Below are positions 8,417 to 50,235 of a DNA stretch of 64,000 bases, in pieces. The stretch is from Novosphingobium nitrogenifigens DSM 19370 (GTDB taxonomy: Bacteria; Pseudomonadota; Alphaproteobacteria; Sphingomonadales; Sphingomonadaceae), in contig NZ_GL876935.1 of the NCBI RefSeq assembly GCF_000192575.1, positions 428,033 to 492,032 on the forward strand, read 5' to 3'. The notes under the pieces were generated by a model that was not told where the DNA came from, did not search any database, and saw nothing but the letters and a program-made list of their open reading frames with translations. The number at the start of each line of letters is the position of its first letter. The stretch's first letter is position 1. The position numbers were made by a program, and so were the translations under genes.

Positions 8417-8448
8417 TGTACCCTGTTCCCCAAGTCCGTCGCGCACAC

Positions 8449-8494
8449 AAAAAAGCCGCCTCAACGCATCCCCTTCGGGACTTGTCCAGGCGGC
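8449..8494 (-). terminator. Leader terminator before nirB
   Basis: Stem GCCGCCT (8494-8488) with AGGCGGC (8461-8455), closed by an inner CCC-GAA-GGGG hairpin, followed by six T (8454-8449). It ends 32 bp before the nirB GTG and overlaps the second ANTAR hairpin. Confidence 0.85.
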
Positions 8495-8570
8495 GCCATT
8501 GCCACGCGATGTGTTGAAAGCGGTTCGGAGATTGTTCCCGTCCACCATTGGACGATCCCGAAACCTTGTT
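8449..8570 (-). promoter_or_regulatory. NasT (ANTAR) antitermination leader of nirB
   Basis: Two short hairpins each display a hexaloop with A at position 1 and G at position 4, the signature bound by ANTAR proteins. P1 is CGTCC-AATGGT-GGACG (8554-8539) and P2 is GTGGC-AATGGC-GCCGC (8505-8490). The 3' arm of P2 is also the 5' arm of the following terminator, so forming P1/P2 and the terminator are mutually exclusive. This is the architecture established for NasT- and NasR-controlled nas leaders. NasT, encoded at 14762-15343, is the expected ligand. Start of the leader is approximate. Confidence 0.85.
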
Positions 8571-8634: not shown

Positions 8635-8825
8635 CTAGGCGCCTTCCGCTTTCAAAATCTGCTGCCGTTCGAACTGGGCGGGCGACAGCATCCCGTTCCT
8701 GACGGGGGTGCGCACAGGGTTGTCATGGCAGGTGCCGCGCCGGCTCATCGAATGCTCAAGATTGCGAGCCTTGGTCCGAATGGATAAGCACCCGCTGCTT
8801 GGGCTTACGCCGCCAGACCGCCAAG
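8635..8825 (-). pseudogene. IS3-family transposase (OrfB) remnant
   Basis: Two short stretches match the C-terminal end of IS3-family integrase-type transposases. On the minus strand, LAVWRRKPKQRVLIHSDQG then a stop; in another frame EHSMSRRGTCHDNPV runs straight into RNGMLSPAQFERQQ and ends in TAG at 8635. Intact transposases have about 15 residues between the DQGSQ and LEHSMSRRG segments and about 40 between DNAV and NGMLSP, so at least two internal deletions have occurred. No terminal inverted repeats or target duplication could be found. It is inert and lies between the nirB promoter and the porin gene. Confidence 0.8.
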
Positions 8826-8903: not shown

Positions 8904-10175
8904 TCAGAAGCTGTATTCAGCCTGCAACCAGTACTTGGTCGTGTCGACGAAGCCCGGTGCCGAGGCACTGAAGCTCGCGTACTTGGCCAAAAGGCCGACC
9001 TTGCCCAGACGGAACCCGACGCTCGCGTCCCATTCGTTGCCGTAGTGCAGGTTGCCGACATCACTGTCGAAGCGGTGCCAGACGAACCCGGCATTCAGGC
9101 CGGGCAGAGCCTTGAACTTGGGCAGGGCCTTCGACAATCCGACGTAGCTGTCCTGAAGGCCGTTGCCCGGCGTGGTCAGGAACACGTCCGCCCACCCGTC
9201 GAACTTGTGCAGGGTCGCCATCGGCGTTTGCAACGCATGACCCTTGCCGTCCGAGCCAAGCAGTTCGTACCCGCCATCGAGCGTCCAGCCCGCATAGCTG
9301 AGCGAGCCTTCGCCCGATATGTAGTCGACCCCGTAATTCGCAGGGTTCTGCTTGTAGTTCGACTGACGGGCAAAACTGCCGATAAGGTTCAGCTTCACTT
9401 TCCTGGTCAGCGACAGAGCCGCCGTCGCACGAACGCCATACGTCTGCGTATCGGCCAGCGAGGCCGCCAGCGCAGGCACCTGTTCCTCGGTGTTGTAATC
9501 GACGAGATAGGCAAAGCCCTTCACCGCGAAGGGGCCTTCCTTGACTGTTCCGCCCAGGAACCAGAAACGCCCGCCATAATTGCGGCGCGGTCCCGCATCG
9601 CTGCCGAACACCGTTTTCTGGTTGATCGCATAGGTCGCGTCGATCGACACCGGCCCCACCCCGGCTTCGACACGAGCCGCGTCGAACGTCTGCTCGTTCT
9701 GGCGCCAGCCCGAGGAACCGACCCAGCGCTGATCATCGAGATTGATCCGTTGGCGCCCGACCGTGACTCCCAGCGCCTTGGTCCGGAACTGGACCTGAAG
9801 CCGGTTGAGATCGATCGTCTCGGGATCGGCAACCGTCGCATAGCGCGCATTGGCCATGGCGGGAATGAACGAAAGACCGTTGTAGTCCCCATCGATCGAG
9901 GTCGTCCCCGATCCTTCGGCCAGGAATGCGAGATGCGAGGGCGCATTCTTCACTTCGAAACCGAACCGGGCCCGGAACGTCAGGGCATCGGCCCCCTTGG
10001 TCGGAGTATCAACATTTTCAAAACGCAAGCGGGCGTCGAGAATGGGGTCGATCGTGGTGCCGTCCGTGATCGTGATCGGATCGCCAAAGGACTTGGGCGC
10101 ATCCGCGGCCTGGGCCGTCCCCGCAAGGCAAACGGGTGCAAGCGTGGCGGCAAGTGCCTGCCAACGGTACTTCAT
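8904..10175 (-). CDS. Alginate-export-family outer-membrane porin
   Basis: Predicted outer-membrane beta-barrel. The 423-residue precursor has a Sec signal peptide (MKYRWQALAATLAPVCLAG, cleavage near AQA-AD), alternating polar/aromatic strands and a C-terminal AEYSF ending in Phe, as required for barrel insertion. The N-terminal part (DPILDARLRFENVDT, later GRQRINLDDQRWVG) is characteristic of the alginate_exp family. I start at ATG 10175, preceded by GAGGGA at the right distance; an ATG 15 bp upstream overlaps that site. It follows narK by about 115 bp on the same strand, which suggests it admits nitrate or nitrite across the outer membrane rather than alginate. That role is inferred from position only. 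Confidence 0.85.
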   Translation of the reverse strand: MKYRWQALAATLAPVCLAGTAQAADAPKSFGDPITITDGTTIDPILDARLRFENVDTPTKGADALTFRARFGFEVKNAPSHLAFLAEGSGTTSIDGDYNGLSFIPAMANARYATVADPETIDLNRLQVQFRTKALGVTVGRQRINLDDQRWVGSSGWRQNEQTFDAARVEAGVGPVSIDATYAINQKTVFGSDAGPRRNYGGRFWFLGGTVKEGPFAVKGFAYLVDYNTEEQVPALAASLADTQTYGVRATAALSLTRKVKLNLIGSFARQSNYKQNPANYGVDYISGEGSLSYAGWTLDGGYELLGSDGKGHALQTPMATLHKFDGWADVFLTTPGNGLQDSYVGLSKALPKFKALPGLNAGFVWHRFDSDVGNLHYGNEWDASVGFRLGKVGLLAKYASFSASAPGFVDTTKYWLQAEYSF

Positions 10176-10291
10176 CGCGATTTCCCTCATGTTGGCGGCG
10201 TCGGCAGTTGGTTGTGGTTTGGCGCCGACGCCGCTGAAGTAACTGTATTCGAACCGGAACCGAACTAAGATCGGTTATCGGAAGCGAATTT

Positions 10292-11548
10292 TCAGATGCG
10301 CGCTCCCTGAAGCGCGGCACCCCAGGTGGTGCGCCAGCGACGCTTGACCCCGGTCAGACCGGCGAGCGCGATCAGCGCAAGACCGGCGAAGACGAGGAAC
10401 CCGAGCGAGGCACTGCCGGTCCATTGCTTGGCAAGGCCGAGCGAGCTGGCGAGGTAGAACCCGCCGACGCCGCCGCCGAACCCGACAAGGCCGGTCATGA
10501 CGCCGATTTCCTTGCGGAAACGCTGCGGCACGAGCTGGAACACCGCGCCGTTGCCGACACCCAGAGTGCCGAGCGTGGCGATAAAGAGGGCAACCGTGAT
10601 CGGGAGCGACTTGGAGCCGAGCGCAATCACCACCAGAAGAGCCGCTGCAACCGCGTAAACGATGCTGAGCGTGCGGATACCGCCGAAACGGTCGGCCAGA
10701 GCGCCGCCGAGCGGGCGGACCAGCGACCCGGCGAATACGCCCGCCGCGGTGCAGTACCCGGCAATGACCGGCGTGATTCCGAAGCCGTCAGTGTAATACG
10801 TCGGCAGCGAGCTGGCGAGGCCGACGAAACCGCCGAACGTGACGCCGTAGAACAGCATGAACCACCAGCAGTCGCCTTCACCCATGACGCGGGCATAAGC
10901 GGCCATCGGCTGGGGTGCGGGCTGGTCGGGGCTGTCCTTGGCCGCGACGAGATAGACGAGGAAGGCGACGCCCAGCGGGATCAGCGCGAAGCCGAAGACA
11001 TTGGTCCAGCCCACGGCCTTGGCCAGCAGCGCGGCAAAGAGCGAAGCGAAGACGGTGCCCGAATTGCCCATCCCGGCAATGCCCATGGCCTTGCCCTGAT
11101 GCTCGGGCGGATACCAGCGGCTGGCAAGCGGCAGCGCGACGGCAAAGCTCGCCCCGGCAAAGCCCAGCACCACGCCCAGCGCCAGGGTTCCGGCGTAGCT
11201 GTGAATGCCGAACTGCCATGCGACGGCAAGCCCCGCCATGACGATGATCTGGCTGATCGTGCCGGTCTTCTTGGGACCGATGCGATCGACGAGGAAGCCG
11301 TTGACGAAACGCAGCACCGCCCCGGCCAGCGTCGGGATGGCGACCATCAGACCCTTTTGCGCGGGCGAAAGGCCCAGATCCTTCGAGATGATCGGCGCCA
11401 GCGGCCCAAGCAGGACCCAGACCATGAACGCGATATCGAAATAGAGAAAAGCGGCAAACAGGGTCGGGCGATGGCCCGACTGCCAAAATCCGGTTGCGGC
11501 ACCTGGGTTTGAAACCGAAGAGCCGCCAGACATCGAAACCGAAGCCAT
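10292..11548 (-). CDS. narK: MFS nitrate/nitrite transporter
   Basis: Inner-membrane permease of the nitrate/nitrite porter family, 418 residues with about twelve hydrophobic segments. Visible family features are the glycine-rich GFAGASFAVALPLASRWYP segment of helix 5 and its partner GTLGVGNGAVFQLVPQRF. The start at ATG 11548 is preceded by GGAAGG. The neighbouring kinase gene is divergent, with only 92 bp between the two start codons. The nearest NasT-type leader on the same strand lies 1.8 kb upstream, beyond the kinase gene, so narK could be read from that leader through DNA antisense to the kinase, or from a local promoter I could not identify. Confidence 0.9.
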   Translation of the reverse strand: MASVSMSGGSSVSNPGAATGFWQSGHRPTLFAAFLYFDIAFMVWVLLGPLAPIISKDLGLSPAQKGLMVAIPTLAGAVLRFVNGFLVDRIGPKKTGTISQIIVMAGLAVAWQFGIHSYAGTLALGVVLGFAGASFAVALPLASRWYPPEHQGKAMGIAGMGNSGTVFASLFAALLAKAVGWTNVFGFALIPLGVAFLVYLVAAKDSPDQPAPQPMAAYARVMGEGDCWWFMLFYGVTFGGFVGLASSLPTYYTDGFGITPVIAGYCTAAGVFAGSLVRPLGGALADRFGGIRTLSIVYAVAAALLVVIALGSKSLPITVALFIATLGTLGVGNGAVFQLVPQRFRKEIGVMTGLVGFGGGVGGFYLASSLGLAKQWTGSASLGFLVFAGLALIALAGLTGVKRRWRTTWGAALQGARI

Positions 11549-11640
11549 CAGCGTATCCTTCCAGCACTTGACGTTTGAAACAAGACCCCGATCCTTGCGT
11601 GTGCGGGCGACGTGCACGCACACGGGAGAGGGGGAAATCG

Positions 11641-13338
11641 ATGCGAACGAGCGGGGATCTCGCGATTGCGGCAGGGTTTGCCACGCGAACCGGTCCACGC
11701 TCGGATAATCAGGATTTCGGCGGGATCGTGCAGGCGAGCGCGACCGAACGCGCCAGCCACGGCGTGATCGCCGCGATTGCCGACGGCGTCAGCGGCGGCA
11801 ACGCGGGGCGCATGGCCTCCGAGCTCACTGTCCGCACGCTGATCGATGGGTACTACGCAAGCCCCCCGACGCTCGGCCCGGCACAGGCGATGGCGCGCCC
11901 CCTCGCCGCGTTCAACGACTGGCTGCACGGACAGGCGCGCGGCAATCCCGCACGTGCCAGTGCGACCACGTTGACCGCGCTTGCCCTCCACGGTCGCCGC
12001 GCCCATGTCGTCCATGTCGGCGACACTCGCGCCTGGCGCTTTGCCGAAGGTCGCCTGACCTGCCTGACGCAGGACCATGTCCGACCCGAAATCGACATGA
12101 GCCACGTCCTCATCCGCGCGATCGGTCTCGAAAGCGATCTGCGGCTCGATCACGGCGCGTTCGAACTGACCGAGCAGGACCGGCTCGTGCTGACCACTGA
12201 CGGGGTTCATGCCCCGCTCGGCGCGCGCAAGATTGCGGCCATTCTCGCCCAGAATGCGAGTGCCGAGGCGACGGCCGAACTGCTGGTCGAAAAGGCACTC
12301 GAAGCCGGCGGCGCCGACAATGCCACGGCCCTCGTCATCGACGTGGTGCGACTGCCCGCCCCCGACCACGACGGCATTCTTGCCGCGATGTCCGCACTGC
12401 CGTTCATTACCCCGCCGGTTCCGGGCGGAACGCTCGACGGCTTTGCCGTCGAACGCGTGTTGAGCGAAGGACGCCACGCTGTTTTGCTGGTCGCGACCGA
12501 CAGCGAAAACGGCGAAGAAGTCGTCCTGAAATTCCCCCGGCGCGAGATCCTGTCCGAACGCGCGCTGCGTCTCGCCTTTGCCCGCGAAATGCTGCTCGCC
12601 CAGCGCGTGAGCAGTCCGTTCCTGCTCTCCGCACGGCCCCAGCGCGACACGCGACAGAGCGGGCTTTACCTCGTGCAGCCCTTCCTCAAGGGCGAAACCA
12701 TGGAAAGCCGCCTTGCGCGCCGTCTGCCCTCGCTCGACGCGGCCCGGGAAGCTGCGGTCAGCCTGACCCGCGCGGTTGCCGCACTGCACCGACTTGACGT
12801 TGTGCATCGCGACATAAAACCCGACAACGTCATGCTCACCGAGGACGGCGGCCTGCGCCTGATCGATCTCGGCGTGGCGCGCCTGCCGCGTGTCGAGGAC
12901 TTTCCCGACAACGAGATTCCCGGAACGCCCGGCTACATGGCACCCGAACAGTTCGCCGGAAACGGCGGCGACGCGCTGACCGACCAGTTCGCGCTCGGCG
13001 TTACGCTCTACCGCTGGTTCACCGGCAAGTGGCCCTACGGTGAACAGGAAGCGTTCCAGCGCCCCCGCTTTGGCGAAGCACGAGCCCCGTCGGCCCATCG
13101 CCCGGAAATTCCGAGCTGGCTGGACGAAGCGATCCTGCGCGCCATCGCGGTTCGTCGCGAAGATCGCCACGGTGACGTCGTCGAACTGCTGCGTGCCTTG
13201 GAAGGCGGCATGATCGGGACGCAACGCACGATGGCCGGGCGCCCCCTGATGGAGCGCAATCCGGTGCTGTTCTGGAAAATGGTCAGCCTGCTGCTCGGCG
13301 CGGCGCTGATCGCCTCGCTCGTGCAGCACAGACTGTAA
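11641..13338 (+). CDS. Bifunctional PP2C phosphatase / Ser-Thr protein kinase, membrane-anchored
   Basis: The 565-residue protein joins a PP2C phosphatase (residues 1-235; SDNQD, IADGVSGG, HVGDTRAW, GGADNATAL) to a eukaryotic-like kinase (about 265-530; HRDIKPDNVML, DLG, GTPGYMAPEQFA) and ends in one transmembrane helix near residue 550, leaving the catalytic domains in the cytoplasm. Such fusions recur in alphaproteobacterial nitrate assimilation clusters, where targets are not settled. Start at ATG 11641 follows GGGAGAGGGGG. Unlike all surrounding nas genes it is on the plus strand, between narK and the second NasT leader, so transcription from that leader would be antisense to it. Confidence 0.9.
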   Translation: MRTSGDLAIAAGFATRTGPRSDNQDFGGIVQASATERASHGVIAAIADGVSGGNAGRMASELTVRTLIDGYYASPPTLGPAQAMARPLAAFNDWLHGQARGNPARASATTLTALALHGRRAHVVHVGDTRAWRFAEGRLTCLTQDHVRPEIDMSHVLIRAIGLESDLRLDHGAFELTEQDRLVLTTDGVHAPLGARKIAAILAQNASAEATAELLVEKALEAGGADNATALVIDVVRLPAPDHDGILAAMSALPFITPPVPGGTLDGFAVERVLSEGRHAVLLVATDSENGEEVVLKFPRREILSERALRLAFAREMLLAQRVSSPFLLSARPQRDTRQSGLYLVQPFLKGETMESRLARRLPSLDAAREAAVSLTRAVAALHRLDVVHRDIKPDNVMLTEDGGLRLIDLGVARLPRVEDFPDNEIPGTPGYMAPEQFAGNGGDALTDQFALGVTLYRWFTGKWPYGEQEAFQRPRFGEARAPSAHRPEIPSWLDEAILRAIAVRREDRHGDVVELLRALEGGMIGTQRTMAGRPLMERNPVLFWKMVSLLLGAALIASLVQHRL

Positions 13339-13381
13339 CCCACATCCACCCATCGGGTGCGCCCCCACGTTGTGCGCACGC

Positions 13382-13426
13382 AAAAAAACCGCCTCGATCC
13401 GGTCGATGAACGACCGGTTCGGGCGG
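13382..13426 (-). terminator. Terminator of the second NasT leader
   Basis: Stem CCGCC (13426-13422) with GGCGG (13393-13389) enclosing a strong inner hairpin CCGGTCG-TTCAT-CGACCGG, followed by seven T (13388-13382). It would also stop read-through from nasT-nasS unless NasT prevents it. Confidence 0.85.
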
Positions 13427-13507
13427 CTCCGTTGCCACGCAATGTTGCTGGAAAAGACCTCGTTCCCCCGGCCCTCCATTGGGCCGACGAGCTCTTTCGT
13501 GGATAAA
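13382..13507 (-). promoter_or_regulatory. Second NasT (ANTAR) leader, pointing into the antisense strand of the kinase gene
   Basis: Same architecture as the nirB leader. P1 is CGGCCC-AATGGA-GGGCCG (13486-13469) with an extra outer CTCGT/ACGAG stem; P2 is GTGGC-AACGGA-GCCGC (13438-13423). Both loops have A1 and G4. P2 overlaps the following terminator. The next gene in its direction is not adjacent: 1.7 kb of antisense DNA of the kinase gene separates it from narK. The sequence features are strong; the controlled gene is inferred. Confidence 0.82.
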
Positions 13508-13536
13508 AAATATGTGATTCGCAGGGCGCGAGTAAA
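13507..13536 (-). promoter_or_regulatory. Candidate promoter of second NasT leader
   Basis: Minus-strand TTTACT (13536-13531), 18-bp spacer, TATTTT (13512-13507) in an AT-rich patch just after the nasS stop codon. It would start RNA right before the first ANTAR hairpin. Confidence 0.4.
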
Positions 13537-13556
13537 GAACTTTTTTCAGGAAAAGA

Positions 13557-14765
13557 TCAGGGAGTGCGCGCCAGATAGCCCGTCAAGTCATGGGGATCGA
13601 AGATCTCATGATCGAAAAAGGTATTCTTTTCCAATGTCATGACGCCCTGCTGCGTGCCCACCGAAGTGCGCTGAAAAACGCTGCCTTCGACTTTGGAACT
13701 GGCCCCCGGCAGCGGTTCGTCCGACCCGATCAACGCCGAGCGATAGACGTCCGGGCGGAAAATCGTTGCAACTTCAGCCGCTTCGCCTGCGGAATAGGAC
13801 ACATCGTTCCACCGCACCATCTGCGTATAGAGCCACAGTGCCTGGCTGACCCATGGGAAATTGGCCGCCTCGCGATACTGGAACATGAAGTCGGGAAAAG
13901 TGACGATTTCGCCGTCTTTCTTCAATAAAAGCCGATCTGCGATCGCACGACTGATCAAAGTCTTGTTGCCGTCGAGATATTCGGGACGGGCAAGAATCGC
14001 GGCGCATTCCTCCATCGCCGCCGGATCGACGAAGTGGCGTGCCGCCTTGACCAGCGCGCGGATCAGGGCCTCTACTTCCCCCCTTCGCTCGTTCAGCACG
14101 GGCTCGCGCAGGGCCAGGACCTTTTCGACGCCACGGCGCCAGATCTGTGCGGTTGCAAGGACGATGACGCCCGCCCCGCGTTCCACGGCAACACTGTTCC
14201 AAGGCTCGCCGACGCAGATGGCATCGACTTCCCCGGCCTCGATCGCGTCGGCACAGAACGGCGGCGGCACGGTGATAATCTCGACATCATGGTCGGGATG
14301 AATGCCGCACCCCGCCAGCCAATAGCGCAGCATGTAATTGTGGCTGGAATAGCGATGGACCACCCCGAACCGCAGCGGTTTGCCCGCATTCTTGCGCTCC
14401 TGCGCCACCTGACGCAGGGCTGTGCCGACAGCGACAGGATCGCCCAGCCCCTCGCCCGGCGCGACCCGCGCGGCGATTTCGGGGCGAACTGTGATCGCGT
14501 TGCCGTTGAGGCCGAGGACGAAGGGAACCGACAGCGGCTGGGCCGGGCGACCGCGCCCGAGCGTTGCCGCGATTGCCAGCGGCGCGACGAGATGCGCCGC
14601 ATCGGTATGCCCGTAAAGCAGGCGGTCGAGCACCGTCGCCCAGCTGACGTCGCGGACGAGCCGCAACTCCAACCCTTCCTGTGCGGCAAAACCCAGTTCA
14701 TGCGCGAGAATCGGCAAGGCCGCATCGACAAGCGGCAGGAAGCCGATCGAGAATTTTGCGCTCAT
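13557..14765 (-). CDS. nasS: NasS, nitrate-binding sensor protein (NrtA-like)
   Basis: Cytoplasmic homologue of the NrtA/SsuA periplasmic nitrate-binding proteins, 402 residues. It has no signal peptide (starts MSAKFSIGFLPLVDAALPI), which separates sensors from transport proteins. Its fold features include GFAAQEGLELRLVRD and the GEVDAICVGEPWNS segment of the ligand cleft. By analogy with characterised NasS-NasT systems it holds NasT in an inactive complex until nitrate or nitrite binds. Its ATG overlaps the nasT stop (14762-14765), so stoichiometric synthesis is likely. Confidence 0.9.
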   Translation of the reverse strand: MSAKFSIGFLPLVDAALPILAHELGFAAQEGLELRLVRDVSWATVLDRLLYGHTDAAHLVAPLAIAATLGRGRPAQPLSVPFVLGLNGNAITVRPEIAARVAPGEGLGDPVAVGTALRQVAQERKNAGKPLRFGVVHRYSSHNYMLRYWLAGCGIHPDHDVEIITVPPPFCADAIEAGEVDAICVGEPWNSVAVERGAGVIVLATAQIWRRGVEKVLALREPVLNERRGEVEALIRALVKAARHFVDPAAMEECAAILARPEYLDGNKTLISRAIADRLLLKKDGEIVTFPDFMFQYREAANFPWVSQALWLYTQMVRWNDVSYSAGEAAEVATIFRPDVYRSALIGSDEPLPGASSKVEGSVFQRTSVGTQQGVMTLEKNTFFDHEIFDPHDLTGYLARTP

Positions 14766-15343
14766 GCGGCCCCTCCCATCAATTTGCTGGCCGTGACGAC
14801 CGCCTCGGCAATGTCGATGATCCGCCGCCCCTGATTCATCGCCGTCTTGCGCAATTCGCTATAGGCCTGCGGCTCGGTCAAGCCCCGGCTCTGCATCAGG
14901 ATGCGTTTGGCCGCATCGATCGCCTCGCGCTCGGCCAGCTTGTTGCGCGCTTCGGCCAGATCGGTCTGAAGCCGGGAAAAGGCGTGAAACCGCCGGATCG
15001 CCAGGTCGAGAATGGGGCGAATGCGATGCGCGGCCAGACCGTTGACGACATAGGACGACACCCCGGCATCGATGCTGGCGGCAATGGCGTTGTCATCCGA
15101 TTCATCGACGAACATCGCGATCGGCCGCGCCAGCGCGCGACTGACCGTGAAATACTCCTCCAGCACGTCGCGGCTTGGGTTACCCAGGTCCATCAGCACG
15201 ATGTCCGGATCGATCTCTGCAATCCGCGCGACCAGACCGCGCCGCTCGGTCACCACGAAAATCTCGCAGTCCTCGAGCACCTCAAGCCCTTCCTCGATCA
15301 CCGAGGCGCGCACCGCACTTTCATCGACAATCGCAACCCGCAT
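14762..15343 (-). CDS. nasT: NasT, ANTAR-domain antitermination regulator
   Basis: RNA-binding antiterminator of nas leaders. The 193-residue protein has a receiver-like domain (MRVAIVDESAVRASVIEEGL, DIVLMDLGNP; a pseudo-receiver, as the phosphorylation pocket is incomplete) and a C-terminal ANTAR domain (AKRILMQSRGLTEPQAYSELRK, then a helix ending RRIIDIAEAVV). Predicted targets are the two leaders at 8449-8570 and 13382-13507. It is co-transcribed with nasS. A perfect 10-bp inverted repeat lies directly before its start codon. Confidence 0.92.
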   Translation of the reverse strand: MRVAIVDESAVRASVIEEGLEVLEDCEIFVVTERRGLVARIAEIDPDIVLMDLGNPSRDVLEEYFTVSRALARPIAMFVDESDDNAIAASIDAGVSSYVVNGLAAHRIRPILDLAIRRFHAFSRLQTDLAEARNKLAEREAIDAAKRILMQSRGLTEPQAYSELRKTAMNQGRRIIDIAEAVVTASKLMGGAA

Positions 15344-24634: not shown

Positions 24635-24754
24635 GGGGGGACTCCGGGGCCAAGGGCACGCCGACGGTTCTATACCCATGTCCGGCCAAGACAAATGTCC
24701 GACCTTTCTTGTCCCGCGTTTGCTTGACAGGCGGGCGACCATGCCGCAATCGCA

Positions 24755-24985
24755 AGGGGCTGGTTCCCGGTTGCAGAGCGATTTGCAGCCGGGCGAAGAG
24801 GGAATGCAAGCGGGAAAGCCCATATGGGCGCGACCCGCAAAAGCAGCCGCCCCCGCGACCGTAACCGGACGAGACTGACCACGATGCCACTGGCCGCTTG
24901 CGGCATGGGAAGGCAGGTCCGTCGTCGGCGAACCGGGCTTTCCCGCCCGATCCGCCCCAGTCCGCAGCCGGGAGACCTGCCAGCA
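24755..24985 (+). promoter_or_regulatory. Cobalamin riboswitch 1 (corrin ring operon)
   Basis: Shows the conserved blocks in order: GAGGGAA and a GCGGG/CCCGC stem, CAGCCGCCCCCGCGACCGTA (equivalent to the CTGCCCCCGCAACTGTA core), GCCACTGG, GGGAAGGC, and the 3' B12 box AGCCGGGAGACCTGCC at 24966-24981. It precedes the DUF1636-cobW-cobN operon. Extent is approximate. I see no T-rich terminator after it, so translational control of the first gene is likelier. Confidence 0.92.
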
Positions 24986-25095
24986 GAACGAAAACCCGCA
25001 GCCGGGGTGTGCTGTGCGCGGTATCGGCAAGGACGACGGCGCGGCTGTCGGCCTGCGCCCGCCGTATGCCCCCCTGCACCGATGAAGGACGGTCA

Positions 25096-47267: not shown

Positions 47268-47399
47268 GGATCGAAGTCCGTAAGCAGGAGACATCGGACC
47301 GCATGGGACAAGCCCCACGCGGCAGGTGGCATCGTCGCTCGGACGGAGAGCAACCGTGTCGGGACCATCCCCTGGATCGCGACAAGAGCGACCACGTGA

Positions 47400-47605
47400 C
47401 CGGCAGGTCTCCTGGCTCGCGGGTCATCACGCGATGCAAAGCCTTCCCGGACCCCGCATGATTGAGCGTCTGGTCCAGTGGCCGCTTCCTGCCGGCTGGC
47501 GGAAGCACCATACATCACACTCACCGCTTACAGTTGCAGGGACAGCCCGGGATTTGCACCCATGTTCCCTTTCAAGCCCTCTCGGGCACCGGCACGCGTT
47601 GGTAA
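47400..47605 (-). promoter_or_regulatory. Cobalamin riboswitch 2 (TonB receptor)
   Basis: On the minus strand: GGTGCCCGAGAGGGCTTGAA, GGGAAC, CGGGCTGTCCCTGCAACTGT, GCCACTGG, GGGAAGGC, and AGCCAGGAGACCTGCCGG at 47420-47403. About 130 nt lie between it and the receptor ATG. Very similar to riboswitch 3. Confidence 0.95.
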
Positions 47606-47624
47606 TCGGTTGAAAATGCCCTGG

Positions 47625-48671: not shown

Positions 48672-48851
48672 CACGGTATTCCAGCAGACGGCAAGCAGCC
48701 TGACGGAACATAGGGCGCAAACACCCCGGCCCCGCCCGCAACGCCCCGTCTGTAGCGCCCGAACGGCTCCTGTCGTTCCATCGATGAATGCCGCTCAAGC
48801 GGAATACCGTGCCGAGACCATCCCCTGGATCGCAGCAAGAGCGACCATGCA

Positions 48852-49055
48852 CCGGCAGGTCTCCTGGCTCACGGGTCATCGCGTGCTGCAAAGCCTTCCC
48901 GGACCCCGCACGATTTAGCGTCTGGTCCAGTGGCCGCCCCCCTGCCGTCTAGGCGGAAGCACCATACAATACGCTCACCGCTTACAGTTGCAGGGACAGC
49001 CCGGGATTTGAACCCGTGTTCCCTTTCAAGCCCTTGCGGGCACCGGCGCACGTCA
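48852..49055 (-). promoter_or_regulatory. Cobalamin riboswitch 3 (NiCoT)
   Basis: Same blocks as riboswitch 2, reading GGTGCCCGCAAGGGCTTGAA, GAACACGGG, CGGGCTGTCCCTGCAACTGT, GCCACTGG, GGGAAGGC, AGCCAGGAGACCTGCCGG. Similarity to riboswitch 2 continues about 50 nt past the 3' end (GATCCAGGGGATGGTC), indicating duplication. About 180 nt separate it from the permease gene. Confidence 0.95.
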
Positions 49056-49209
49056 CGCGACCTCATCGATCGCGCAGGCGCATTGCTATGATACTTTTCC
49101 GCCGCTGCCAAGTTCCGACGAAAGTAACGGCAAGACCGCCCCGCAAAAGTCCATGGCGGATTTCGGCAAAGGCATTACACGAACCGCCCCCAAGCACGGA
49201 GATCCCCCC

Positions 49210-49884: not shown

Positions 49885-50067
49885 TATGGCACCCGGCAAC
49901 GTGGAAGGTTCCCCGGAGACGGGGATGAAAACGGGAACGGGGTGCAAGACCCCGGCTGCCCCTGCAACTGTGAGCGGATAGCCGCATGCCATGAGGCCAT
50001 TGGGATCGCCCGCCGATCCTGAGAAGGCGGCATGACCGGCCTTGACCCGCGAGCCAGGAGACCTGCC
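49885..50067 (+). promoter_or_regulatory. Cobalamin riboswitch 4 (late cobalamin operon)
   Basis: Blocks: GGAAGGTTCCC, AACGGGAACGGGGTGCAAGA, CGGCTGCCCCTGCAACTGTG, GCCATTGGGA (one change from GCCACTGG), GAAGGCGGCA and AGCCAGGAGACCTGCC at 50051-50066. About 170 nt before cobT. Its loop sequences differ from riboswitches 2 and 3. Confidence 0.95.
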
Positions 50068-50235
50068 TTTCGCCGTCGTCTTTCGTGCGGACAGGGTGTT
50101 CCGGGCGAACGGGGGTGAACCCGCACGGCGACAGTGTTGGACCTTGCGCACGGCGCGCAGGGGACCGGATCGTCGCGCGTCGGCGCCCGGCCCTGCCTGC
50201 CTTGCGGACTGTCCCGTCATGGAAGGTATCGCCAG

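Follow-up and report, generated by a model that had tools for sequence, protein, structure and literature searches.

A putative nitrate-controlled noncontiguous operon in which an open antisense frame through a kinase gene joins an ANTAR leader to narK

How might an attenuator leader govern a gene when another gene lies reversed between the two? The question is raised by a nitrate locus in the window, a stretch of 64,000 nucleotides from Novosphingobium nitrogenifigens DSM 19370. The minus strand carries nasT, encoding an ANTAR antiterminator (14762–15343; ANTAR 3.9e-17, the single ANTAR match in a genome search), then nasS, named from its gene context as the nitrate sensor protein (13557–14765; NMT1_2 5.6e-65), and then a NasT-type ANTAR attenuator leader (13379–13490), the adjacency of nasTS and leader being a matter of co-occurrence. 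This leader has nasTS on one side and, on the other, the 3' end of a gene for a PP2C phosphatase–Ser/Thr kinase fusion on the plus strand (11641–13338, start codon assumed; Pkinase 8.1e-29, PP2C_2 1.6e-13), and is aimed through the kinase gene toward narK (10292–11548, minus strand; MFS_1 4.7e-46), an MFS transporter gene assigned to nitrate/nitrite by context. The kinase gene and narK are divergent, with a gap of 92 nt between them. On the minus strand, 3' of narK, lie an outer-membrane porin-like gene named by reading alone (8904–10190) and a second ANTAR leader, located 5' of nirB (8446–8558). The gene order, with narK starting at 11548, is as the original prediction described it, but its statement that no same-strand gene follows the leader did not hold, as an open reading frame of 601 codons (asORF; 11548–13353, minus strand) runs from an ATG at 13353, preceded by a GGGGG motif and just after the leader, to a TGA that overlaps the narK ATG in the sequence TGATG. 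The chance is roughly three in four that nitrate controls a noncontiguous operon here, and that ribosomes reach narK across the kinase gene on an antisense bridge that is selected and translated.

The leader of the window was correctly recognised in the original prediction as a minus-strand ANTAR leader with its own terminator. It has two hexaloop hairpins, each loop having A as its first and G as its fourth base, namely P1 with the loop AATGGA and P2 with the sequence GTGGC-AACGGA-GCCGC. The 3' arm of P2 is at the same time the 5' arm of an intrinsic terminator (GCCGCC...GGCGG-T7), with which it overlaps and which it excludes, as expected of an ANTAR/NasT attenuator. Rfam gave no match at either leader at gathering thresholds, and so a separate leader model was built from 32 rows, including 16 kinase-side and 4 narK-side leaders that match by construction. 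Applied to the whole genome, this model returned two strong matches, 77.4 bits at 13379–13490 and 85.3 bits at the nirB leader, the third-best match reaching 20.8 bits. In the 32 aligned leaders P1 and P2 are paired in 93.1% of cells against 79.6% in shuffles, with a covariation score of 0.450 against 0.198 (sd 0.019). For the competing terminator stem the share of paired cells is 98.1% against 97.2% in shuffles, a figure that reflects presence rather than covariation because its columns hardly vary. The P1 loops of some relatives start with G (L004, L013, L014, L015, L018). A generic terminator scan found no excess over chance (5 against 8.0 expected), the leader terminator being among the five.

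The same leader–kinase–narK layout is found in 39 loci from the family of the window and from named, mostly sphingomonad, relatives, Novosphingobium capsulatum (L085) among them. The 95 genomes with a NasT match were covered in part, by 80 stretches. In a separate set of 80 loci 18 share the layout (L082–L098 and L139) and the other 62 served as controls for stop counts; L094 and L098 were judged to be the same contigs as L010 and L014, and were dropped from the stop, leader-pattern, motif, start-codon and junction counts. All 38 loci that reach narK combine it with the leader and the antisense kinase, the remaining locus (L020) ending before it, which upholds the predicted tie between the leader and narK via the antisense strand of the kinase gene. 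The leader also keeps its place beside the 3' end of the kinase gene in loci whose nasTS lie elsewhere (L008, L012, L015, L020) or are reversed (L095, L139, L171, L172). In all 18 fetched nasTS–narK loci that have no kinase gene, a leader stands directly 5' of narK, the adjacency for which a synteny search had been proposed. A recent inversion or insertion of the kinase gene next to a decayed leader, the alternative offered originally, was rejected since the arrangement is common to kinases that are 48–100% identical to that of the window and the leader is conserved.

It is improbable that the leader is a vestige, or a plain terminator of the nasTS operon, with narK being transcribed from a promoter within the 92-nt gap. 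Such a gap could indeed hold a promoter, and the terminator is found downstream of nasS in 15 of 20 family loci, but the persistence of the leader where nasTS have moved or turned argues against this reading, as does the conservation of P1, for which a terminator alone has no need. Moreover, a GTCAA[GC] motif is conserved in the gap: 33 of 38 loci have it at most 70 nt from the asORF stop, against 1.0 in shuffles. It may belong to the kinase promoter as its −35 element; in the window it appears on the plus strand as CTTGACG (11567–11573), just upstream of the opposite-strand narK. A weak narK promoter may nonetheless lie in the gap.

On the leader side, a promoter-like site, CTTTACT-N16-CATATT, can be read in the interval between nasS and the leader (13509–13537, minus strand). 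The predicted candidate promoter is thus seen by reading but not by computation, since a generic sigma-70 scan, which gave no excess (1 promoter against 1.2 expected), does not list it. Stretches resembling CTTTAC...GAATC...TTA lie upstream of many relatives' leaders, but a strict form of the pattern occurs in only 11 of 38 loci against 0.4 in shuffles, so that the site is only partly conserved.

The kinase gene itself shows what distinguishes its antisense strand. Across the 39 loci only 2 of 21,571 kinase codons are of the kind (TTA, CTA or TCA) that would place a stop in the asORF frame, against 56.2 expected, and 37 loci have none at all; the exceptions are one internal stop in L089 and one in L020, where it falls at a kinase/transposon-like junction. 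The other two antisense frames of the kinase hold 474 and 499 stops. This statistic treats the loci as independent; restriction to 25 representatives below 80% identity, which eases their kinship only partly, leaves 1 stop against 31.7 expected. In 19 loci no other kinase codon is depleted as strongly as CTA, TCA and TTA (0 against 25 expected), the next-lowest codon standing at 0.52 of its expectation.

That the open frame is a mere by-product of the codon usage of G+C-rich genomes is hardly credible, even if the genome of the window taken alone would make it unremarkable, with 0.52 stops expected and nirB and the porin gene also free of stops in the corresponding frame. Kinase orthologs from loci without narK are likewise poor in stops (23 in 10,425 codons, 8 of 19 stop-free), these being genes with a GC content of at least 0.615, many of them from Brevundimonas. 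Against this, eight neighbouring genes lie near expectation, ranging from narK (37 against 50.1) to nirB (78 against 65.2), and orthologs that are co-directional with narK do hold stops (94 in 18,136 codons, 4 of 33 stop-free), as do the class B kinases, co-directional in the operon (14 in 7160 codons, 5 of 13 stop-free). An artefact of codon bias was rejected on these grounds. The pattern suggests that the antisense strand of the kinase gene is kept free of stops as far as narK, and that narK is switched on by ribosomes passing along this strand.

Both ends of the frame are consistent with such passage. After the leader a start codon in the asORF frame is found in 39 of 39 loci, with a Shine–Dalgarno-like (SD-like) site in 34, compared with 17 and 11, and 5 and 1, in the other frames, which are handicapped as controls by holding more stops. 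For 21 of the 39 the best candidate is a GTG or TTG codon, and in five no SD-like site reaches the threshold used. In L004, L005 and L086 a porin homolog stands between the leader and asORF, and in L004 and L005 the ATG of asORF overlaps the porin stop, giving the order leader–porin–asORF–narK. The frame encodes 592–625 amino acids in 35 of 39 loci, and in 36 of 38 the distance from its stop to the nearest narK-frame start lies between −11 and +6 nt, with ATGA in 23, the narK start being here the nearest candidate rather than an annotated one. In L010 the frame extends into narK by 140 nt. The original prediction had a long 5' UTR crossing the kinase gene, and a plain excludon or noncontiguous operon with an untranslated antisense RNA would agree with the conserved geometry of leader, antisense kinase and narK; this is nevertheless a poor prospect, for it treats the open frame as irrelevant and leaves unexplained both the absence of stops from a single frame and the stop at the narK start.

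A frame that is open, has a start codon and SD-like sites, avoids stops strictly and is of near-constant length could also be a genuine overlapping gene, its expression maintained by selection for a functional antisense protein. This is unlikely, since the asORF products of relatives are only 28–44% identical to that of the window whereas their kinases are 48–70% identical. Four-fold degenerate sites of the kinase determine first bases of antisense codons, and their conservation (0.548) does not exceed that of such sites in narK (0.564) or nirB (0.580), in a comparison that excluded L016, L020, L094 and L098 and could miss weak constraint. An AlphaFold prediction for the asORF product from 26 rows gave a mean pLDDT of 29.3 and a pTM of 0.13, the product had no Pfam match, and by eye no conservation was seen at its N and C termini, where it extends beyond the kinase. 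The start signals and openness of an overlapping gene are thus present without a sign of purifying selection on its protein; selection has apparently kept the frame open but not its amino-acid sequence, and the product is probably unimportant. It is reasonably likely, if somewhat less so than the operon as a whole, that asORF is an ‘escort ORF’, the complete antisense frame of a conserved gene selected for openness alone, by which passage is gained from a leader to the next gene while the reversed gene is silenced. If so, the codon choice of the kinase is dictated by an opposite-strand frame that makes no needed protein.

The translated antisense bridge is envisaged to work as follows. RNA polymerase would start between nasS and the leader and, in the absence of nitrate, would terminate in the leader, as in the ANTAR paradigm. 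With nitrate, NasT would be freed from NasS and bind P1 and P2, preventing the terminator, and transcription would then proceed against the kinase gene for 1.8 kb. Loading on asORF right after the leader, ribosomes would accompany the polymerase over the full antisense length of the kinase gene, stop at the TGATG/ATGA junction and re-initiate on narK by translational coupling. As the frame is kept open and its amino acids apparently are not, asORF would be a carrier that avoids Rho-type polarity, Rho being assumed to take part, and couples narK translation. The same event would repress the divergent kinase through transcriptional interference and sense–antisense RNA, and from the geometry it follows that nitrate import would go up and the kinase down together, in the manner of an excludon. 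Reversed genes within operons have been explained by untranslated antisense RNA, which active Rho should terminate early; the present locus suggests an evolutionary solution, in which the antisense strand is kept readable.

The leader takes a second form in some loci. It stands at the kinase 3' side with a terminator in 33 of the 39 (L170 is counted here, its match falling on L164, the same place) and without one in six, where the folds pair the start-codon/SD region with P2-side sequence (z of −4.3, −3.1 and −3.0 in the three clearest cases; weak folds in L139, L171 and L172). The regulatory step in these six must differ and is predicted to be translational, and ANTAR RNAs acting on translation are also predicted in the account of PMC3369931. 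That account covers ANTAR attenuator leaders of eut, nas and amiR, which share with the present ones the two hexaloop hairpins bearing A1 and G4 and the exclusion of an intrinsic terminator by P2; unlike the cases it presents, the first open reading frame after the leader is here antisense to another gene. NasS–NasT systems as described in PMC6759348 and PMC3795266 likewise combine nasTS with leaders of nitrate genes, nitrate freeing NasT to prevent the terminator, but here a reversed kinase gene separates the leader from its target. In Bradyrhizobium diazoefficiens, hairpins recognisable by NasT are predicted before narK, but deletion of nasT raised the level of narK RNA, according to PMC6759348, so that a leader is no guarantee of positive control by NasT; confidence in the operon was lowered on this account from 0.76 to 0.74.

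The nearest counterpart is the noncontiguous operon menE-menC-MW1733-ytkD-MW1731 of Staphylococcus aureus (Saenz-Lahoya et al. 2019, as reviewed in PMC7154746), which also has a gene of opposite orientation inside the operon and two overlapping mRNAs expected to be reciprocally regulated. In the review's account its antisense stretch is an internal untranslated region, whereas here sequence evidence points to a translated frame of some 600 codons, selected and joined to the next gene, in a unit led by an ANTAR leader and conserved across many species. Long antisense overlapping genes, as treated in PMC9927249 and PMC7457138, are also ORFs antisense to annotated genes, but those are proposed to encode functional proteins, whereas here it is openness that is conserved and the protein sequence apparently not, and the ORF ends at the start of the next gene. 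A long conserved antisense ORF need not, this suggests, mean a functional protein. Depletion of stops from a single antisense frame ending at a downstream start is a signature that could find noncontiguous operons without RNA data, and the locus suggests a connection of nitrate sensing to a Ser/Thr kinase-phosphatase that can be put to the test.

T-runs of at least four number 40 on the antisense strand of the kinase and 58 on its sense strand (65,859 nt), from which no conclusion is drawn; this search, like those for the GTCAA[GC] motif and the strict promoter pattern, left out L016, L094 and L098. In the gaps of seven of the eight other divergent kinase–narK loci, all but L142, no clear leader was seen, although the gap of L155 contains one strong hexaloop hairpin.

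The nitrate locus runs along the minus strand of the window from nasT (15343-14762) and nasS (14765-13557) through an ANTAR-type leader with hairpins P1 and P2 and a terminator (13490-13379) to narK (11548-10292), and the PP2C-kinase gene (11641-13338) lies between leader and narK on the plus strand. A porin-like gene follows narK on the minus strand and, past a second ANTAR leader (8558-8446, minus), come nirB, nirD, a SUMT-like gene and nasA, in that order and on the same strand. The Pfam scan covered five window proteins, namely the kinase, NasS, NasT, NarK and the product of the antisense reading frame described below, and the remaining genes were named by reading. In the first leader P1 carries the hexaloop AATGGA and P2 is GTGGC-AACGGA-GCCGC, with one arm common to P2 and the terminator. 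Among 32 aligned leaders P1 and P2 covary: both sides of the pair have changed in 48 cells, compared with 14.5 in shuffles. The terminator stem is paired in 98.1% of cells (97.2 in shuffles), its columns hardly varying. Genome-wide, the ANTAR protein family is matched once, and the genome's two strong leaders are both inside the window. Between porin and nirB there is broken sequence (8689-8821, minus) that by eye resembles an IS3-type transposase remnant and for two short pieces of which Pfam gave no match.

An antisense ORF (asORF) of 601 codons (13353-11548, minus) runs through the kinase gene on the narK strand, in register with the kinase codons and uninterrupted by stops. Kinase TTA, CTA and TCA codons would close it, and across 39 loci of the window layout these number 2 in 21,571 codons against 56.2 expected, a figure that takes the kinase amino acids as given and draws codon usage from eight neighbouring nitrate genes. 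Of the 39 kinases, 37 are free of antisense stops in this frame; in the other two antisense frames the stops number 474 and 499. For the neighbouring genes, observed and expected stops are 20 vs 17.4 (nasT), 39 vs 36.2 (nasS), 37 vs 50.1 (narK), 31 vs 33.4 (porin), 78 vs 65.2 (nirB), 5 vs 7.9 (nirD), 13 vs 12.3 (cobA) and 40 vs 40.0 (nasA). Keeping a single representative at 80% identity reduces the set to 25 loci, with 1 stop against 31.7 expected. The Poisson figures for both sets treat loci as independent. The window genome by itself has an expectation of 0.52 antisense stops, and its open asORF alone would not be remarkable. On codon bias as a rival explanation, a 19-locus set has 0 TTA, CTA and TCA codons against 25 expected; in that count TTG and CTT show no depletion, and the next most depleted kinase codon reaches 0.52 of its expected number.

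Stop depletion goes with the leader-antisense kinase-narK arrangement. Among kinase orthologs that point the same way as narK there are 94 stops in 18,136 codons (none in 4 of 33), and their GC-rich subset (kinase GC at least 0.615) has 70 in 15,920 (none in 4 of 29). Divergent orthologs outside the window group have 53 in 4420 (none in 1 of 8), or 11 in 2751 when GC-rich (none in 1 of 5), and orthologs whose locus lacks narK have 45 in 11,484 (none in 8 of 21), or 23 in 10,425 when GC-rich (none in 8 of 19). A further kinase type, distant at about 27-35% identity and co-directional in the operon of other relatives, has 14 in 7160 (none in 5 of 13). Kinase orthologs of 48-51% identity are also present at L099-L103, L105-L110 and L112-L114, mostly Brevundimonas, where none of the nitrate genes searched for was found within the fetched stretch, which reached up to 7 kb to either side.

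All 39 loci have an in-frame start between the leader and the kinase stop (+30 nt) with at least 60 open codons after it, and the best SD-like match at the asORF start reaches at least 4 of 6 in 34. In the other two frames, which have more stops, the same start test succeeds at 17 and 5 loci, and SD-like sites number 11 and 1. Of the 39 best-scoring starts, 18 are ATG and 21 GTG or TTG; that of the window is the ATG at 13353, after GTGGGGGCGCACCCG. At the other end, 38 loci have narK (L094 and L098 left out), and in 36 of them the asORF stop falls within -11 to +6 nt of the closest start codon in the narK frame. The junction is ATGA in 23 loci and TGATG in the window, the exceptions being L010, where the frame continues 140 nt into narK, and L089, which has an internal stop. 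In L020 (11100-11355) kinase homology ends around residue 86, not far from the end of the contig and beside sequence that reads as transposon-like, and the sole antisense stop of this locus is at that junction.

Kinase third positions set the first positions of asORF codons, and kinase four-fold sites are no more conserved than those of neighbours, mean identity over 108 overlapping pairs being 0.548 for the kinase, 0.564 for narK, 0.580 for nirB and 0.498 for nasS. The asORF products are 28-44% identical to that of the window (26 rows), the kinases 48-70% (19 rows). The window product had no match in the Pfam scan and no confident predicted fold (pLDDT 29.3, pTM 0.13). Hence it is the openness of the asORF that is under selection, and apparently not its protein sequence, although the product could still be a weakly constrained protein.

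The leader-kinase-narK layout is old. Within the family, 33 of 298 genomes have a kinase match at E<=1e-60, and 20 of these, the window counted, carry the window type (48-100% identity). At 18 of the 20 loci a leader on the narK strand adjoins the kinase 3' end, without its terminator in L012 and L020, and nasTS is directly upstream of the leader in 15 of the 20; it is elsewhere in L008, L012, L015 and L020, and the L016 contig starts at that place. L004 and L005, the two loci outside the 18, have a porin gene between leader and kinase, and since the ATG of the asORF overlaps with the stop codon of this porin gene, their order is apparently leader-porin-asORF-narK. L086 has the same order, so that in all three the porin lies between leader and asORF instead of past narK (L004, 3814-7070). 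A scan of named genomes gave 18 loci of window type, from Novosphingobium, Sphingomonas, Porphyrobacter and MAGs, some labelled just Pseudomonadota, and an order-level search at E<=1e-120 matched 8 of 296 genomes and gave 3 new loci; the total is 39 after removal of two same-contig duplicates. In 33 of these the asORF is preceded, on the same strand as narK, by a leader with terminator; L004, L005 and L086 are among them, as is L016, whose leader is partial because the contig ends there. At the remaining 6, P1/P2-like hairpins stand with no terminator and score low against the leader model (9.7-20.8 bits), and in L095, L139, L171 and L172 nasTS is turned round, with the hairpins divergent from it. 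Relatives without this kinase have nasTS-leader-narK directly, with a model match in the nasS-narK gap at 18 of 18 fetched loci (narK of at least 60% identity behind nasS), 4 of which had been used to build the leader model. In genome G098 the two kinase types occur together: L008 has the antisense type, as part of a leader-kinase-narK-nirB unit separate from nasTS, and L024 the distant co-directional type, next to nasTS.

The best explanation is a NasT-controlled noncontiguous operon with a translated antisense bridge. NasS parts from NasT on sensing nitrate, and NasT then disturbs formation of the terminator in the nosR leader (PMC6759348); ANTAR proteins bind the two hexaloops and thereby exclude the terminator (PMC3369931). 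Here, nitrate would allow polymerase to pass the leader, ribosomes would enter the asORF and shield the 1.8-kb antisense RNA from premature termination, and their arrival at the ATGA or TGATG junction would start narK translation. The kinase, read against this transcription, should be repressed. A simple nitrate/NasT reading of narK control is weakened by Bradyrhizobium, in which deletion of nasT raised narK RNA despite NasT-recognisable hairpins predicted before narK (PMC6759348). The kinase-narK gap in the window is 92 nt and the motif GTCAA[GC] is found in this gap in 33 of 38 loci, against 1.0 in shuffles, which leaves little room for a narK promoter, though one is possible. Read as CTTGAC on the kinase strand, the motif may be a kinase -35 element.

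Translational control is predicted for some ANTAR RNAs (PMC3369931). The terminator-less hairpins lie at L012 8630-8775 (+), L020 9575-9725 (+), L095 8690-8815 (-), L139 8699-8820 (-), L171 12170-12300 (-) and L172 11510-11640 (+), with P2 36-67 nt upstream of the asORF start. Minimum-energy folds (71-96 nt) of all six have P2-side sequence paired with the region of the start codon or SD site; the fold is strong in L095 (z -4.3), L012 (z -3.1) and L020 (z -3.0) and weak in L171 (z -1.8), L139 (z -1.4) and L172 (z -0.5). These folds suggest that the switch works here on translation of the asORF itself.

Among known concepts the noncontiguous operon comes closest; there, pairing is along an internal untranslated region (PMC7154746), whereas the antisense region here has the features of a reading frame. 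Antisense overlapping genes are proposed to be protein-coding (PMC9927249; PMC7457138), whereas the protein of the asORF seems unimportant. Titles and abstract beginnings among the matches listed, with the subscription literature mostly outside them, include no antisense ORF in a nitrate operon or kept as a carrier. The principle behind the system may prove new. Elsewhere in the window, four cobalamin riboswitch matches score above the Rfam gathering score, at 24744-24998 (+), 47384-47608 (-), 48837-49062 (-) and 49889-50084 (+).
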